From the NCBI GenBank assembly GCA_903907865.1, contig CAIVPR010000028.1, positions 1 to 64,000 on the forward strand: 64,000 nucleotides of DNA, read 5' to 3'. Positions within the stretch are counted from its first letter, which is position 1; every line of letters starts with the position of its first letter. The position numbers were made by a program, and so were the translations under genes. Origin of the DNA: an uncultured Acidobacteriia bacterium. GTDB taxonomy: Bacteria > Acidobacteriota > Terriglobia > Bryobacterales > Bryobacteraceae. Positions 50,481 to 58,734 of this stretch are shown in pieces. The notes under the pieces were generated by a model, which ran no database searches, had not been told where the DNA came from, and was given only the letters and a program-made list of their open reading frames with translations.

Positions 50481-51914
50481 CTACTCCTTCGCGGGCGCGG
50501 CCCTCTTGGTCGCCCGTTTCCTCGGGGTTGCCGCAGCCTTGCGGGCCCGCTTCGGAGCCGGTGCCACGTTGCCGTTCACCTCGGGCCCGGTTGGTGCCGC
50601 AGCCTTCTTGCCACCCTTCTTCACGCGCGGGGAATCAGCGGTTGGCTGTCCGGGCACGATCGGCTGCGGCTCCTCCACCTCCTCGTCGTCGTCGAGGACG
50701 TCCGGCAGAACCACAGGCTCCGGCTCGGGAATGGCCGGCGGATGGAACTCCGCACCGAGGAACACCACCAGTCCGCTCGCCTCTTCGGGCACCACGCGGA
50801 CCACAGTCTTGTCCTGTGCGTAATTGAGCAGTTCGCTGAATTCCTGGAAGCCGAACTGGGTCCAGTCGAAGGCCGGAGCCTCTTCCTTCACCCAACCCTG
50901 CAGGTCGTCGGCCAACACGCCGTCTTCCATCTCCAGACGGTGGTTCTCCAGCACGTCGCGCAGCGCTGGCAGCGCCTCTTCCGGCTTCACCGTCTTCTCC
51001 GGCGCGCCGTTGCGCTTCCGCTGGATCATGTACTTGCCTTCGCCACCAGTGACGATGATCAAGTCCGTTTTCTTCAGCTTGTCGATGAAGTCCGTGAACG
51101 ACCCCGCGCCGTACGCGCGCTCGCTGAAGCTCGAATCGAGCTGCAGCATGGTCGACTTCAGCAGCCCCAGTTGCGGACGCACCTCGCGCCGCTCCAGCAC
51201 CTGCAGCGCGCGTTCCACCAGCGGCATCGCCTGGTGCAAATCGAGCGACGGACGCTTGTGCTGCTGCCCGCCACCGCCGCCCTGCTGCCCGCCGCCACCC
51301 TGCTGGCGGTCCTGGCGTTCTTGGCGCTCCGGACGGTCCTGGCGCTCCTGCCGTTCGGGACGTTCGCGTTCCGGACGGTCGATCGCCACCTGCTCCTGCG
51401 GCTTGTTGTTCTGCTGCTGCTGGCGCTGGGGCCGCGACGGCCTCGAATCGTCCAGCATCGATTCGTAGCTGATGAATTCGTGGCAGTTCTTCTGCAGGAT
51501 CGTGCTGGTGAAGGCCTTGCCGCCCACCACGAACACAGTCTTGTCGTACTGCTTCAGCTTGTTCACCAGCGCGATGAAGTCGCTGTCGCCGCTGACGATG
51601 CAGTACGCGTTGATGTGGTGGTGCGTGAACGCCAATTCCAGCGCGTCGAGCGCCAAATTGATGTCCGCGCCGTTTTTGTCGCCCCTTGGCGACGGGTCGC
51701 GCTGCACCATCTGCACCGCGTACTCCGACAGCTGGCGCGTGGAATTCTCCAGCTTGCCCCAGTTGGCGTACGCGATCTTGGTGATGATTTCCCCCCGCTC
51801 CTTCAGCGCTTCCAGCACCACGGAAACGTCGAATTCGCGTTGCAGCGTGGATTTCACGCCGATCTCTATGTTGTCGAAGTCAATGAAGACTGCGATCTTC
51901 AGGTGCTTATCCAT
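50481..51914 (-). CDS. NYN-domain (LabA/DUF88-like) ribonuclease-type protein with LOTUS/OST-HTH region
   Basis: 477 residues from ATG 51914. The NYN PIN-like domain has the acidic centres IAVFIDFDNIEIG and AYCIVSGDSDFIALVNKLK, expected to bind a metal for RNA cleavage. A low-complexity linker rich in Arg, Gln, Glu and Pro (residues about 175-235, with GGGGQQ runs) follows. One or two OST-HTH/LOTUS-like segments bind RNA in relatives (LGLLKSTMLQLDSSFSERAY; DDLQGWVKEEAPAFDWTQFG). A basic Lys/Ala-rich tail ends the protein. It lies 16 bp after the B12-binding subunit gene, in the same transcription direction. Confidence 0.85.
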   Translation of the reverse strand: MDKHLKIAVFIDFDNIEIGVKSTLQREFDVSVVLEALKERGEIITKIAYANWGKLENSTRQLSEYAVQMVQRDPSPRGDKNGADINLALDALELAFTHHHINAYCIVSGDSDFIALVNKLKQYDKTVFVVGGKAFTSTILQKNCHEFISYESMLDDSRPSRPQRQQQQNNKPQEQVAIDRPERERPERQERQDRPERQERQDRQQGGGGQQGGGGGQQHKRPSLDLHQAMPLVERALQVLERREVRPQLGLLKSTMLQLDSSFSERAYGAGSFTDFIDKLKKTDLIIVTGGEGKYMIQRKRNGAPEKTVKPEEALPALRDVLENHRLEMEDGVLADDLQGWVKEEAPAFDWTQFGFQEFSELLNYAQDKTVVRVVPEEASGLVVFLGAEFHPPAIPEPEPVVLPDVLDDDEEVEEPQPIVPGQPTADSPRVKKGGKKAAAPTGPEVNGNVAPAPKRARKAAATPRKRATKRAAPAKE

Positions 51915-51930
51915 GTCCACCTTCGCGGAA

Positions 51931-52341
51931 TTAAATGGCGTCATGTTGTCCACCGCATGCCTCTCGAATGCACTTTGCAATGCCATCGAGCGAGGCCCCC
52001 GGCTGGAAAACCTGCGTTACGCCTTGTTGAACCAAATTCCGGGCGTCCTCGTCCGGAATGATGCCGCCTACAATTACGATCACGTCCGACATACCCTTCC
52101 CGCGCAGCAGTTCCATCACTTTGGGAACGATGACATTGTGCGCGCCCGAGAGGATCGACAAGCCTATCACCCGCACGTCTTCCTGCAGGGCGGCGTTGAC
52201 AATCATCTCCGGTGTCTGTCGCAAACCAGTATAGATGACCTCCATGCCTGCGTCGCGAAGTGCGCGTGCGATCACCTTGGCGCCACGGTCGTGGCCGTCG
52301 AGACCGGGCTTTGCGACAAGCACTCGGATGGGTGTATTCAT
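51931..52341 (-). CDS. B12-binding subunit of an acyl-CoA mutase
   Basis: 136 residues. The cobalamin-binding signature is [20 protein letters not shown] (DxHxxG), with [11 protein letters not shown] and [13 protein letters not shown] completing the lower-axial-ligand fold. It matches the small subunit of split methylmalonyl-CoA or isobutyryl-CoA mutases, which carries adenosylcobalamin for the catalytic subunit encoded just upstream, 34 bp away. The start at ATG 52341 removes a non-homologous extension. Confidence 0.93.
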
Positions 52342-52375: not shown

Positions 52376-53971
52376 TCAAACCGAGGGCGTCTCCACCCAC
52401 CGTCCGAACACGTCCGCAAGCGCGGAGCATATCTCTCCCAAGGTAGCGTATGCCCTGGCCGCGTCCATCAAAACCGGCATCAAATTCGTTTCCGACTCCG
52501 CCACGCGCCGCAGCCGCCCCAGCTCCCGCGCAACCGCCTCGCCGCTCCGAACCGCCCGCAACCGCCGCAGCTTCACGCACTGCGCGTCCTCCGCCGCCCG
52601 GTCGATCCTCAATGTTTCCAGGGGCTTGCCGTTCCCCGACGCCCCCGCGAACCGGTTCACACCCACCACCACCGTCTCCCCCGACTCCACCTTTTTCTGC
52701 TGCCCGTAGCTCGCCGCCGCGATCTCCCCCTGCGGGAACCCTCGCTCGATCGCCGGTATCATCCCCCCCATTCCGTCGATCCGCTCCATCAGCCCCCGCG
52801 CCCGTTCAACCAGCTCCGCCGTCAGCTTCTCCACGAACCAGCTGCCCCCGAACGGGTCCGGATGCGCCGCGATCCCGCTTTCGTGAGCCAGCACCTGCTG
52901 CGTCCGCAATGCAAGCGTCGCCGCATGCTCGCCCGGCAGCGCGTACGCCTCGTCCAGCGAATTCGTGTGCAGCGACTGCGTCCCGCCCGCCACCGCCGCC
53001 AGCGCCTGGATCGCCGTCCTCACCACGTTGTTGTGCGGCTCCTGCCACGTCAGCGTGCACCCGGCCGTCTGCGCGTGGAACCGCAGTTTGAGGCTCCGCT
53101 CGTCCTTGGCCGCGAACCGGTCCCGCATCACCTTCGCCCACAGCGACCGCGCGGCGCGGAACTTCGCCACTTCCTCGAAAAAGTCGTTGTGCGCGTTGAA
53201 GAAGAAGCTCAACCTCGGCGCGAACGAGTCCACCGGCAACCCCCGCGCGATGGCCCACTCGACGTACTCCACCCCGTCGCGCAGCGTGAACGCCAGTTCC
53301 TGCACCGCCGTCGACCCCGCCTCCCGGATGTGGTACCCGCTGATCGAGATCGGGTTGAACCGCGGCGTGTGCCGCGCGCCGAATTCGATGGTGTCGGTGA
53401 CGATCCGCATCGACGGGCGCGGCGGGAAGATGTACTCCTTCTGGGCGATGTATTCCTTCAGGATGTCGTTCTGCAGCGTCCCCGAAAGCCGCGCCAAGTC
53501 CGCCCCCTGCTTTTCCGCCGCCACCAGGTACATGGCCCAGATCGGCGCGGCGGGCGAGTTGATCGTCATCGACACCGACGCGTCCGCAAGCGGAATCCCC
53601 TCGAACAGCGCCTCCATGTCTTCCAGCGACGACACCGGAACCCCGCACTTCCCCGTCTCGCCCACCGCCTCGGGGGCATCGGAATCGTACCCCATGAGCG
53701 TGGGGAGGTCGAACGCGACCGAAAGGCCGGTTTGCCCTTGCTCCATCAGATAGCGGTAGCGCCGGTTGGTCTCCTCGGGCGTGGCGAAACCGGAGAACTG
53801 CCGCATCGTCCAGAGGCGGCCCCGGTACATGGTCTCGTGGATTCCAGCGGTGTAGGGGAATTGGCCTGGCGGGGGCGGATTCAAGGAATCGTCGCCGGGG
53901 AGGTAGAACGGCTCGACCGGAATGCCGCTGGAGCTCTCGAACTTGCGCGCGGGATGGTCAGCCTTGGCCAT
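52376..53971 (-). CDS. Methylmalonyl-CoA mutase family catalytic subunit
   Basis: 531 residues, TIM-barrel radical mutase without its own B12 domain. The signature region [20 protein letters not shown] and [20 protein letters not shown] are typical. The substrate-contact tyrosine of true methylmalonyl-CoA mutases (RQYAGFS) is Phe here (RQFSGFA, F59), as in isobutyryl-CoA-type mutases, so the substrate is unsettled. The first 27-28 codons lie inside a 124-bp repeat duplicated at 57121-57244. Its 5' end overlaps the STAND gene by 14 bp. It pairs with the B12 subunit downstream. Confidence 0.92.
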
Positions 53972-54013
53972 GTGGTGATTGTAGCGTTGCTTTTTCCGCC
54001 TTGACCTTGTCGA
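53890..54013. repeat. 124-bp direct repeat, copy 1 (intact mutase start and STAND gene end)
   Basis: Identical base for base to 57121-57244, 3231 bp apart and in the same orientation. It contains the first 27-28 codons of the mutase gene and the last 18-19 codons of the STAND gene, which overlap. The base before each copy differs (t at 53889, g at 57120), as does the base after (g at 54014, t at 57245), fixing the length. Confidence 0.97.
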
Positions 54014-56891
54014 GCAGGGCGCGGAGCTTCTCCTCGAACGGGAAGGGCGGGTACTTGGACGCGTCGAATGGCGGGAGTTGGGGCTCGGGGTCGCCGAGGG
54101 CTTCGAGGACCTTGCGACAGCGCTGGAGTTGCCACCCGTAGACGTAAGGCGGGCCGTCTGCCCATGCGCGCTTGTAGGCAGGGCCAATGTGTTTACGGGC
54201 GCTTTCGGTTTCCCCTAACTCAAGGAATAGCTCCGCTAATTCGAGGTTGTATTGCGAATCGCCAAGCTTGCCAGCGATGTCCCGCGCTTGCTGGACTTCT
54301 CCCAGATGTACCAGCGTGAAGGCCCGCCGCAGTTCGCAGTCTGTCGCATCGAGCCCCGCTTCTCGGGCCATCGATATGGCCTCATCGAAACTATCCGCAG
54401 CTAGTTGCCATTCAAGCCGCTGTAGTCGCCACTGACCTCGAATTTCGTGCATTTCGCGGATTACCTGACGGTTTCTTCCCCTGGAGGCGGTCTCTTCCGC
54501 TTGCGATATCAACTGATCATTCAGACCCGTCGCCTGGAGACGCAGTCGGCAGAACCACACCTCAGCATCTCCTGGGCGGTACAAGCTTCGCTCTGAAGGC
54601 CTAGGCATTCTCGCAAGGACTTGCCACCGCCGGTCAGCGTCTTCGTGGTCCCCCCGTTCGGCCGACCTATAGAACATCTCAAGCATAGAGGAGGTAATCG
54701 TATTGGAGCCGACATACGCAGAGACTTCGAACATCAGCTGCGTTAACCGATCGCAAAGGAAGGCGCGTCCGGACACCCGAAACGACTCACCAAGATTTCC
54801 CAGCGACACCCACACGTTCAGGAGGTCCCTTCGCGCGACTGCGGCCCGGAGGAGCGCCATGCGGATGCACTGAACCATGTCTTCTGGCGAAGTCTCGGCA
54901 AGCGAATTAGTGACATTTGCCCAAAGCAATACTCCGACGAAGTTGTCAACTTCCGGCGGATGGTCCAGTCCGCGCGGGAACAGGGGTCGCGCCACCTCAA
55001 TGAACTCGTGGTGCGCTTCGAGATTAAAGCTGAGCGGGTTGGATATGTCGAACAATAGATCCGCCGCTTGATTGGTCATTCCCAAGTGAATCATAGTACG
55101 CACTACCTGTAGCCCATCGCTGAGATCTGCCAAGCTGGATGCCTCTTCGTAGGGGCCGTGCGGCTTAGACGCAAAGTGGTCGACGACGGCTCCGCCAGCA
55201 GTCATGCGGTGTTCTGCAGTGAGCGATCCCACCGCATACCCACGCACCACCGGATGCAGGTCAAACCGGCCTTCCTTTCGATCCCACTGGATCAACCCGC
55301 GAGCCTCCAAATCAACGAGCAACTCATTGAGCCGCTTCTTGTCCAAGCTTGAATTGAGCGCCAATAGGGTCTCAAAATCCACCGACTCCGAGACCATGCC
55401 CATCTTCGCCAACAGCATCCTCGCATCAGCGCCCAACGCGTCGAACGCAAACTTCAAGATATGGTTCCGCCTCTGGACTAGATCCATCGTGGCTGGGTTG
55501 ATCGATGCTCCACCGTCTGGGTCCGCCGCCCACTTGTCGAAATCGTTCATCGCGGGTCCATAGTTGCGCACCAGCCCTGCCACAACCCCGACCACCAACG
55601 GATGGCAGCCAAAGTTCTGGTCCAAGTAGCGCCGGATGGCAGCCGAATCGCCCTTCACACCCGCCTGAGTCAAGATCCCCTCGGCATCCGCTGGATCCAG
55701 GCCCATCAATTTCACATGCGCGACACCCTCCCGCTCCAACCCGCCCGGACCCAGAAGGGGCGACGGCATCAAACGCGACGACACCAGAAACTTGGACGGT
55801 CCAGCCCCGGCCAACTGCCGCAGTAGATCCGCATCAGCCGGTCGGATGCAATCGACAGGCTTCGCGTCCGCCCCACCCTGTGAACCCTCCACCTCCTCGT
55901 CCCGCACCTGCGCCGCGTCGTACCGGTTGTACGCCACCAACACGCGTTCCAACCCGTCCAGCACCACCAACCATGGCCGGGTCCCAAACGCTTCGATCAA
56001 CACCGGCATCAGCGCCGTCGTTTTCTTACCTTGGAACTCCTCCACCTTGCGACCGGACACGTAGGCCATCGCGTAGCGGCAAAAATCGTTCATCTCCGCG
56101 CCCCGCTCGTAGAAGCTGTACCAGAAGATGCCCGCAAAGTCGGGCCGAACCTTGCGCGCGTACTCCTTCACCCACTGCCACGAAAGCATGCTCTTGCCCA
56201 TGCCGCCGATAGCCTCGAGCACCAGCACCGGATCGGACGGCGTAACAGCCCAGTCGTCCAACTGCTGCAACTCCTTGACCCGCCCAGTGAACTTATGGCC
56301 CGGTGTATAGGGCGGCACAGCTTGGAACTTGCGGGGGAACTCAGGATCGGCGGGGACAACCGACAAAGGGACGACAACCGTCGGCTTCGTCGTCTCCAGA
56401 TTGGCGCGAATCTCGTCCAGCGCCTTCGCCACCAAATACTTCAAGTCGTCAACGGAGTCGAATGTGGCGGAGATGTGCGACTGTTGGAACCGCTTGCGAA
56501 ACGCCTCCAGTTGCGCCTGTTGGGTACCGTTGTCGCGATTGACCGCGCTCCGGGGAATCGGATGCTTGTCGCTCATCACGAACATGTAGGTCGGATGCCC
56601 GAGCGCCTCCGCCAAGTCGTACTCCAACTCGGTCACCGAAACACCCTTGGGGTTGCGGGTATCCACCAGCACTTGGCCATACCGATACCCAATGATCCCG
56701 ACATACGCCTGCGAGTTGCGCACCTTCTCCAGCGAGGACGTGATGATGTCCTCATGCCGAGCCGAATCCAGCTCCATCGCCTGCGGGAACATGTGCGCCT
56801 CGATGATCGCGTCCTTGACGATCTTCCGGTGCTCCTCCAAATCCTTGAAGGAACTAGAGAGCATGATGTCGTGGTGTTTCAGGCTCGCCAT
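53958..56891 (-). CDS. STAND NTPase with N-terminal DUF4062 domain
   Basis: 977 residues. DUF4062 at 5-115 ([49 protein letters not shown]) is a recurrent effector-like domain of bacterial STAND proteins. The NACHT/NB-ARC-type ATPase has Walker [10 protein letters not shown] (226-234) and Walker B LVVLDGLE (308-315). A winged-helix region follows and the C-terminal 450 residues are alpha-helical, TPR-like sensor repeats. STAND NTPases of this design recognise an invader molecule and trigger cell death or dormancy in several known systems. It is a single gene with no partner. It lies between two 124-bp direct repeats and shows mixed, more A/T-rich codon use in its second half. A defence role is inference. 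Confidence 0.88.
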
Positions 56892-57079
56892 GATAGATCC
56901 TGATTATACGAAACAACACCGCCAATTGCACCAGAATGGTGGTCCCGTGGACCACGACGCCAACCCCGGTCGGATCGCCACCCCTGTCACAAACTTCTTT
57001 CCCGGCAGAATCATTGACTTCCGCCAACTGCCCGGGAATCCACCCCGGCCCGTGCTAAACCAAACTCGGGGTAAATCCC

Positions 57080-57120
57080 ATGTCGACACCCAAACAGATC
57101 GCCGCAAACCGGGGCAGGGG
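57080..57120 (+). pseudogene. N-terminal stub of an AANR-type protein
   Basis: ATG at 57080 reads MSTPKQIAANRGRG before running into the 124-bp repeat. The opening matches a family common in acidobacteria whose members begin M.TPKQIAANRRNA..STGPRT. The frame is truncated within codon 12-14 by repeat copy 2. It is divergent from the STAND gene, and the gap 56892-57079 between them holds a palindrome gtggtcc-cgt-ggaccac (56938-56954 area) that could be an operator. Confidence 0.45.
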
Positions 57121-57244
57121 CGTCGCCGGGGAGGTAGAACGGCTCGACCGGAATGCCGCTGGAGCTCTCGAACTTGCGCGCGGGATGGTCAGCCTTGGCC
57201 ATGTGGTGATTGTAGCGTTGCTTTTTCCGCCTTGACCTTGTCGA
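57121..57244. repeat. 124-bp direct repeat, copy 2 (truncated mutase start)
   Basis: Exact copy of 53890-54013. On the minus strand it reads the mutase opening [20 protein letters not shown] up to FYLPGD and then leaves the mutase sequence at 57120, so it encodes only about 27 mutase residues. Its left edge cuts an AANR-type gene and its right edge meets the comF promoter region. Confidence 0.97.
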
Positions 57245-57268
57245 TCACTGCTCGGTCCAAATGCCCTC

Positions 57269-57297
57269 TTGACAACACTCCCGTCCCGGCCTACACT
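57269..57297 (+). promoter_or_regulatory. Sigma70-like promoter of the ComF-like gene
   Basis: A perfect TTGACA (57269-57274), a 17-bp spacer and TACACT (57292-57297). Transcription should start near 57304, followed at once by an agaggag ribosome-binding site and the ATG at 57319. The leader would be about 15 bases. Confidence 0.72.
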
Positions 57298-57318
57298 TGG
57301 TGGTTAGAGGAGTCCTAC

Positions 57319-58136
57319 ATGGTCCACACGCCGCTCATACACGCGCGACGACACACGGGGGGTGCACCTTCTCAAGCCACCTGCTGACGAGAACGGTCGC
57401 CTCTTCCATCGGATCCATTCCGCACGCTCTTTTTTCGCTATTTTTCCCCGCAGACTGCCGGATTTGCAACACGTCCTTAACCGGATGGACGCGCATCCCC
57501 GTCTGCGACGACTGCCTCAAGGCCCCCGAGCCCCTCGACGCCGAGTTCTTCTGCTCCGCCTGCCGCACACCTTTCCGCAACGCGCTGCCTCTGGATGACC
57601 ACGGAGTGTGCCGCGCCTGCCGCGCCGGTCTTCGCGGATTCGACCGCGCCGCAACCTACGGGTTCTACGAAGGCAAGCTGCGGAGCCTGATCCACCTGCT
57701 CAAGTACGCGGGAATTCAGCCCTTGGCCGCGCCCCTTGCCGGACTCATGCACCGGGCCCTTCCCGTCGACCAGACGTTCGACGCCATTGTCCCCGTACCC
57801 CTGCATTGGCGCAAGTCCCTCGACCGCGGCTTCAACCAAGCAGAACTGCTGGCACGGGAACTTGCCCGCAAGCGCAATATTCCCATGGCGAAGGCGCTGC
57901 GACGCAAGCGCTCCGGCGCGGTCCAAGCCAGTCTCTCGTTGGCGGAACGACGCCGCAACGTGGCTGGCGTTTTTGAGGTCCGGGCCAAGCAGGACGTACG
58001 GGACAAACGAATTCTTCTTATCGACGATGTAATGACAACAGGCGCGACCGCCTCGGCATGCGCCTCGGTATTGAAACGGGCGGGGGCGAAATCTGTCTCC
58101 CTGCTTACAGTAGCGAGGGTGGACCGCCGACACTAG
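57319..58136 (+). CDS. ComF family phosphoribosyltransferase-like protein (frameshifted near the start)
   Basis: The body encodes two CxxC zinc pairs ([10 protein letters not shown] with [14 protein letters not shown] with CRAC), the ComF core and a PRTase PRPP loop [20 protein letters not shown]. ComF proteins help DNA uptake or processing in competent bacteria. The promoter and ribosome-binding site point to ATG 57319, but that frame ends after 22 codons at TGA 57385. Adding one G to the run of six G at 57356-57361 joins it to the main frame and gives 272 residues. A sequencing indel is the simplest reason. Otherwise a CTG start at 57384, overlapping the TGA, would be needed. Confidence 0.78.
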
Positions 58137-58206
58137 ACCCCGGGTAGCAGTTTCACTGCAAGACAGTGCAGCAAATCAAGTACGGATCGAGAAAGGAATT
58201 ACCGCA

Positions 58207-58734
58207 ATGCCTTCCTATACGCGACTCCAGAAAGCCGTTCTCGTATTAAATGCGAGCTACGAACCCATCAACGTGTGCGCCGCCCGGAGGGCGCTGGTCC
58301 TGGTACTGAAAGGCGTCGCTGCAGCCGAGGAACACGGACCAACCTCGGTGCACTCCTCGCGCCGCACGGTCAAAGTACCGTCGGTGATCCGCTTGCTCGA
58401 ATATCGGCGCATCCCGCACCAGACACGAGCCCTATCCCGCAAGAACATCATGATGCGGGACCGCTACATGTGCCAGTACTGCCTCAAAACCCTTCCGGCG
58501 GGGGAGTTGACGTTGGACCACGTCATTCCGCGCTCCCGCGCAGGCGAATCGGCGTGGGAGAACCTTGTCGCGTGCTGCCACCAGTGCAACAACCGCAAAG
58601 GCAACCGTACACCCGAAGAAGCGGGCATGAAGCTGCACCGCCAGCCCAAGCCGTTCAGCCTGCACACCAGCCGCCATTTGATGCGGCTGCTGGGCAAGAG
58701 CGACGAACAGTGGCGCAAATACCTCTTCTACTGA
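58207..58734 (+). CDS. HNH endonuclease
   Basis: 175 residues. The HNH zinc-finger nuclease core reads [20 protein letters not shown] then [20 protein letters not shown] and [11 protein letters not shown], with the two CxxC pairs and the DH/N/N residues of the beta-beta-alpha-metal fold. The N-terminal part ([20 protein letters not shown]) is the typical opening of a widely conserved stand-alone HNH family with unknown role. A good aaagga ribosome-binding site lies upstream. Not obviously linked to phage or restriction genes. Confidence 0.92.

Follow-up and report, generated by a model that had tools for sequence, protein, structure and literature searches.

A 64,000-nucleotide stretch of DNA from an uncultured Acidobacteriia bacterium of the family Bryobacteraceae (contig CAIVPR010000028.1 of assembly GCA_903907865.1, positions 1 to 64,000; the window) carries two identical 124-bp direct repeats. 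They enclose the gene of a 977-amino-acid protein with a DUF4062 domain and a P-loop, referred to here as the nucleoside triphosphatase (NTPase). A first-pass annotation of the sequence had tentatively explained the repeats by a DNA circle that brought the NTPase into the 5' end of a methylmalonyl-CoA mutase gene, in the manner of an att-site duplication. We favor a different origin, with a probability of about 0.73: the repeat is a duplicated piece of the border between the NTPase and mutase genes which marks the junction of a chromosome rearrangement, i.e. a scar, as opposed to a trace left by a mobile circle. Three direct observations bear on this view, namely an NTPase motif inside the repeat, a gene of the AANR type cut at the second copy, and a changed upstream neighbour of the comF-HNH genes that follow this copy.

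The two copies (Table 1) were identical at every position, had the same orientation and were 3231 bp apart, as had been annotated at first. Identity was lost at both edges. Beyond the left edge 1 of 10 and 2 of 20 bases agreed, beyond the right edge 6 of 10 and 10 of 20. The bacterium's own genome (G000; 7.5 Mb in 186 contigs) contained these two copies of the 124 bp and no others; a third, weak match of 35 bp with 86% identity lay within a gene read as sugar-phosphate isomerase. The rarity of such repeats was surveyed in a sample of 1,689,025 bases (22% of the genome), which included the whole of contig C28 and from which 30-mers with more than 20 occurrences were omitted. Among exact direct repeats with both copies on one contig, none was longer than the 124-bp repeat, and the next in length had 88 bp. 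Seven same-contig pairs of at least 60 bp were present, several of them inside repeat arrays as judged by spacing. The repeat is not due to chance. In 18 genomes of the same genus (congeners) every match to the 124 bp was 37 bp or shorter. The hexamer GCAGGG is found at either end of the 3.1 kb that separate the copies (54014-54019 and 57114-57119), perhaps by chance in GC-rich DNA.

Next, each part of the repeat was assigned to the gene that owns it. The first 27-28 mutase codons make up the left two thirds, and the right 26 bp or so are coding sequence of the NTPase. Copy 1 contains the last 17 codons of the NTPase open reading frame (ORF) and leaves the mutase whole, and in copy 2 the mutase breaks off at codon 28; the first-pass annotation was right about the mutase in both copies but had overlooked the NTPase codons in copy 1. 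The NTPase end was examined in 15 relatives that reach towards the C-terminus. Eleven of them were scored, excluding one that is too short there (L156) and three with different ends (L162, L163 and L164). A C-terminal motif, IEKLRAEK or a variant, was found in ten of the eleven, with IEKLR in seven and IAELR, IEKMK and LAEAR in one each; L177 was divergent (VNKKE). AEK followed the motif in four scored relatives and a near form of it in some others. The counterpart in the window protein is LDKVKAEK, of whose coding sequence all but one base, the first of the leucine codon, lies inside the repeat. When DKVKAEK was scored against the eleven relatives, only four of the 130,382 7-mers in the six-frame translation of contig C28 equalled or beat its score. 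Two of these were the repeat copies themselves and two were unrelated. Because the right end of the repeat codes for the C-terminal motif of the NTPase and the left part for the start of the mutase, the repeat reads as the border of the two genes. Its context appears native on both sides in copy 1 only. By the same assignment, copy 1 appears to be the original and copy 2 derived.

Table 1. Features around the 124-bp repeats (positions in the window)
Feature	Position	Strand	Remarks
NYN/LOTUS gene	50481-51986	-	
B12-binding mutase subunit	51931..52338	-	next to the mutase wherever a congener's mutase locus was read
Methylmalonyl-CoA mutase large subunit, intact	52376..53971	-	PF01642
Repeat copy 1	53890..54013		NTPase 3' end and mutase 5' end; context apparently native on both sides
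977-aa protein (amino acids, aa), DUF4062 and P-loop (STAND-like)	53958..56891	-	residues 961-977 inside copy 1
Repeat part coding for the conserved NTPase C-terminal motif	53988..54013	-	DKVKAEKA, residues 961-968
Leader and first 11 codons of AANR-type gene	56980..57111	+	MSTPKQIAANR; from homology to paralogues
Nine bases between AANR fragment and copy 2 (junction J1)	57112..57120		uncertain origin
Repeat copy 2	57121..57244		apparently derived; first 27-28 mutase codons (gene cut) with the last part of the NTPase coding sequence; AANR fragment on the left, comF promoter on the right
22 bases between copy 2 and comF block (junction J2)	57245..57266		unknown origin
comF-HNH block	57267..58734	+	comF ORF 57297-58136, HNH 58207-58734

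This assignment bears on the circle that had been proposed. Because the 124 bp contain the tail of the NTPase, a virgin site of the order mutase-124 bp-comF was impossible before the NTPase was there, and insertion of a circle into an untouched mutase 5' end is not supported in its original form. An amended version would have a 3231-bp circle of NTPase, AANR fragment and 124 bp recombine through the 124 bp with a chromosome of the order mutase-124 bp-comF. The A-R-X-R-B structure of the locus is the one expected of such a single crossover. Yet the NTPase tail must already be present in the recipient 124 bp. An empty site of this kind would itself be left over from a deletion of the NTPase, and the model requires three steps. 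Moreover, none of the 18 congeners had a mutase-124 bp-comF site, and neither an integrase nor a transposase was found with Pfam among 15 window ORFs of 41-64 kb, the NTPase included, a check that left aside smaller ORFs and 1-41 kb; this is in line with the missing integrase of the first-pass annotation. We regard the amended circle as unlikely.

The outward path proposed at first is possible: by RecA-dependent exchange between the copies the NTPase would be lost, with both mutase and comF staying whole. An extension of this idea would have RecA pop a suicidal gene that depletes NAD (nicotinamide adenine dinucleotide) out as a 3231-bp circle, which re-enters through the same 124 bp. If true, a population could turn a costly defence on or off with no need of an integrase, and excision would restore a divergent mutase-comF pair. 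We give such a reversible defence cassette very little probability.

If the empty site existed in relatives, mutase and comF should be neighbours there. All 18 congeners have a member of the mutase family, with a close orthologue in ten (70-85% identity) and a more distant homologue only in the other eight (55-59%). The best mutase match and comF lay on different contigs in 17 of them and about 41 kb apart on the same contig in G016, so that adjacency was seen in none of the 18. The comF loci of 29 relatives, comprising the 18 congeners with 0.8-1.5 kb of upstream DNA and, with 1.4-1.5 kb, 11 genomes from elsewhere in the family, showed neither mutase nor NTPase. In all, an empty site was sought in relatives via comF, the mutase and the 124 bp itself and was not found, where some of the 124-bp scans may omit near genomes. 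The FAD-oxidase gene that adjoins the mutase in the relatives G015 and G018 lies on contig C128 in G000. No mutase or comF was present in the 16 kb read there, and chromosomal neighbours were discarded as reciprocal breakpoints.

To the left of copy 2 lies the beginning of the AANR-type gene. Seven paralogues from the same genome have 222-239 codons, while the window gene is cut after 11, which bears out the truncation annotated at first. Homology to the paralogues ended at 57111 in five, at 57112 in one and at 57116 in one, that is 4-9 bases short of copy 2. AANR-type genes form a large family in this genome with 51 matches, 11 of them close copies, and a leader of about 100 bp upstream of the start codon was common to five of the seven copies found by DNA, two sharing less. 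One AANR-type gene checked with Pfam gave no family. A stretch upstream of two AANR genes (L147 and L150) resembles, by eye, an intergenic repeat that recurs in the genome (18282-18389 and 9964-10017 of the window, 1300-1407 of L190; 82-85% identity between C101 and the window).

To the right of copy 2 lies the promoter side of comF. The sequence became homologous to the comF promoter regions of G015 and G018 at about 57267, 22 bp past copy 2, and a promoter-like pair, TTGACA at 57269-57274 and TACACT at 57292-57297, was read by eye ahead of comF. The first-pass annotation had identified this flank correctly; its further assumption, that the mutase start naturally lies here, divergent from comF, is at odds with the gene order of the congeners. 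All 18 of these possess comF, and G000 has one. The DNA upstream of comF was homologous across 11 of the 18 (tblastx), and in the three genomes read (G001, G006 and G010) it contains a gene which we take to be Yip1-like. In G000, G015 and G018 the sole match to this gene was on a contig other than that of comF (C114 in G000). The order in G015 was M23, DUF341-like, PD40, comF, HNH, X, Y, Z, where M23, DUF341 and PD40 are names read from the sequence and not from a family search. In G018, comF-HNH-X-Y-Z was preceded by the last part of a PD40 gene at the edge of the contig, extra ORFs lying between, and there was a whole PD40 together with DUF341-like and M23 on a separate contig. In G000, contig C17 carried M23, DUF341-like, PD40, one other ORF and an inverted Z-Y-X, with comF and HNH absent. 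At the M23 loci of ten further congeners and one of G018, M23 was present in all 11 and PD40 in eight, and neither comF nor X-Y-Z was found in the 12-20 kb read.

Thus the upstream neighbour of comF-HNH in G000 differed both from that of the two closest genomes and from the one shared by 11 congeners, and the position beside copy 2 was seen in G000 alone. By these gene orders comF-HNH appears to have changed place in this clade, and we infer that it moved to its present site in the lineage of G000. Because mutase and comF were never neighbours in the congeners and the upstream neighbour of comF-HNH differs, copy 2 would lie at a rearrangement junction. Two side observations concern the same region. 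The X-Y-Z genes, downstream of HNH in G015, stand in inverted order beside PD40 on C17 of G000 (L142, 7820-11360), a second sign of rearrangement at a locus where G015 and G018 have comF. At 7532-8612 of L071, G018 has ORFs between PD40 and comF which are absent in G015, with homology resuming near the comF promoter. The upstream side of comF looks like a repeated breakpoint.

How might copy 2 have come to this junction? Templated or filler insertions at rearrangement breakpoints arise by template switching and end joining. In a similar event here, comF-HNH would have been joined to the locus during the rearrangement, and copy 2 placed between two broken or moved ends, on one side the AANR gene truncated to 11 codons and on the other the left margin of the comF-HNH block. 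From the NTPase/mutase border 3.1 kb off, 124 bp would have been copied into the junction as templated filler when the broken ends rejoined. This route is the most likely one for copy 2, if held at somewhat less than even odds. Like known templated fillers, copy 2 repeats a short piece of DNA from close by, without inversion, at the junction of two formerly separate loci. A search for Ku, the one enzyme looked for, found a single gene in G000, and end joining may thus be available in this organism.

The other history that leads to a scar takes two steps. First, AANR codon 11 would have been joined illegitimately to mutase codon 28, giving a tandem duplication of 3231 bp, and the arrival of comF-HNH would then have truncated the second unit to 124 bp. 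The copies have the spacing and the orientation of a tandem unit, both junctions lie inside genes, and bacteria are reported to undergo tandem duplication spontaneously (PMC11111574). On the other hand, two independent events would have to end 124 bp apart, and neither a remnant of a second NTPase nor the remainder of the AANR gene was found in G000. We consider this history possible but less likely than templated filler; its share is contained in the probability given above for a scar. The serial duplication offered as an alternative in the first-pass annotation comes closer to the evidence than its circle. Filler and two-step histories leave the same sequence and are not separable.

Several points weigh against a rearrangement scar. 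No relative showed the intermediate, NTPase-mutase without copy 2, and the order of events is therefore a matter of inference. A reciprocal product was missing from G000, where neither a second NTPase nor an AANR remainder turned up; none of the 51 AANR matches started at codon 12. A decayed AANR gene on contig C101 was considered as the other half and rejected, since it lacks about 17 codons, starts later and does not match. No microhomology was visible at the junction bases, and 124 bp seems long for templated filler compared with the fillers of end joining. As to direction, comF-HNH may have left the PD40 locus in G000 or may instead have entered it in G015 and G018, as more distant congeners have PD40 with neither comF nor X-Y-Z nearby. 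A literature search returned nothing on short-patch double illegitimate recombination; searches on duplication with inversion and on templated filler, the latter yielding mostly papers on eukaryotes, did not lead to a bacterial precedent.

Two further explanations of the repeats were weighed. In the insertion with long target duplication known from restriction-modification genes of Helicobacter pylori (Nobusato et al. 2000, as cited in PMC1643837 and PMC3031569), a segment is inserted and a long stretch of the target is duplicated. The pattern fits the window in that a long direct repeat, here 124 bp and exact, surrounds a defence-type gene and no recombinase is seen. It differs in that the window repeat is not pure target, about 26 bp being the 3' coding sequence of the inserted gene itself, and that no empty target with a single copy is known from the 18 congeners. 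Such an insertion is thus hardly probable here. Alternatively, the assembler may have taken a wrong path through a collapsed repeat, with the cells carrying an integrated or a separate form, as could happen in a genome of 186 contigs. The two copies, however, have four distinct and sensible flanks, the contig is unbroken there, and whichever path is taken the 124 bp is required on either side of the 3.1-kb piece. We consider an artefact equally improbable. An estimate of the assembler's k from shared contig ends was abandoned because at least one shared pair continued past a mismatch like an ordinary repeat and several ends gave uninformative 300-base matches.

We therefore favor the view that the repeat is a rearrangement scar, an ordinary though tidy case of its kind. 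It illustrates that an att-like repeat can be recognised as such a scar by assigning each part to its owner gene, and it documents shifting neighbours of comF-HNH in the genus. In addition, the defence-like DUF4062 gene may be easily lost at this locus.

Finally, we looked at the 977-amino-acid protein itself. Pfam matched it to DUF4062 (PF13271, E 5.4e-19) and, at an E of 0.001, to nothing else, STAND, NB-ARC and NACHT domains included; a STAND label would thus come from the P-loop motif only. PADLOC (2023) gave no match. A related-locus search found no relatives of the NTPase, but a genome search with a cutoff of E <= 1e-10 did, in 26 of 257 genomes of the order, its own genome counted. Among the congeners, three of 18 showed weak partial matches only. 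The P-loop GGxGK (residues 229-233) was present in all 14 relatives that reach it, and E90 was conserved in 19 of 19 aligned relatives (20 loci submitted, one without a match). DUF4062 is presented in PMC13174449, a preprint, as the TIR-like NADase domain of the phage-defence system Swarozyc, and by analogy E90 would be the catalytic glutamate. The window protein is probably a Swarozyc-like TIR-type NADase. Like Swarozyc as described there, it combines a DUF4062 domain and a conserved glutamate with an auxiliary part; in contrast, this part comprises a P-loop domain and an extended C-terminal region, and the activity is predicted.

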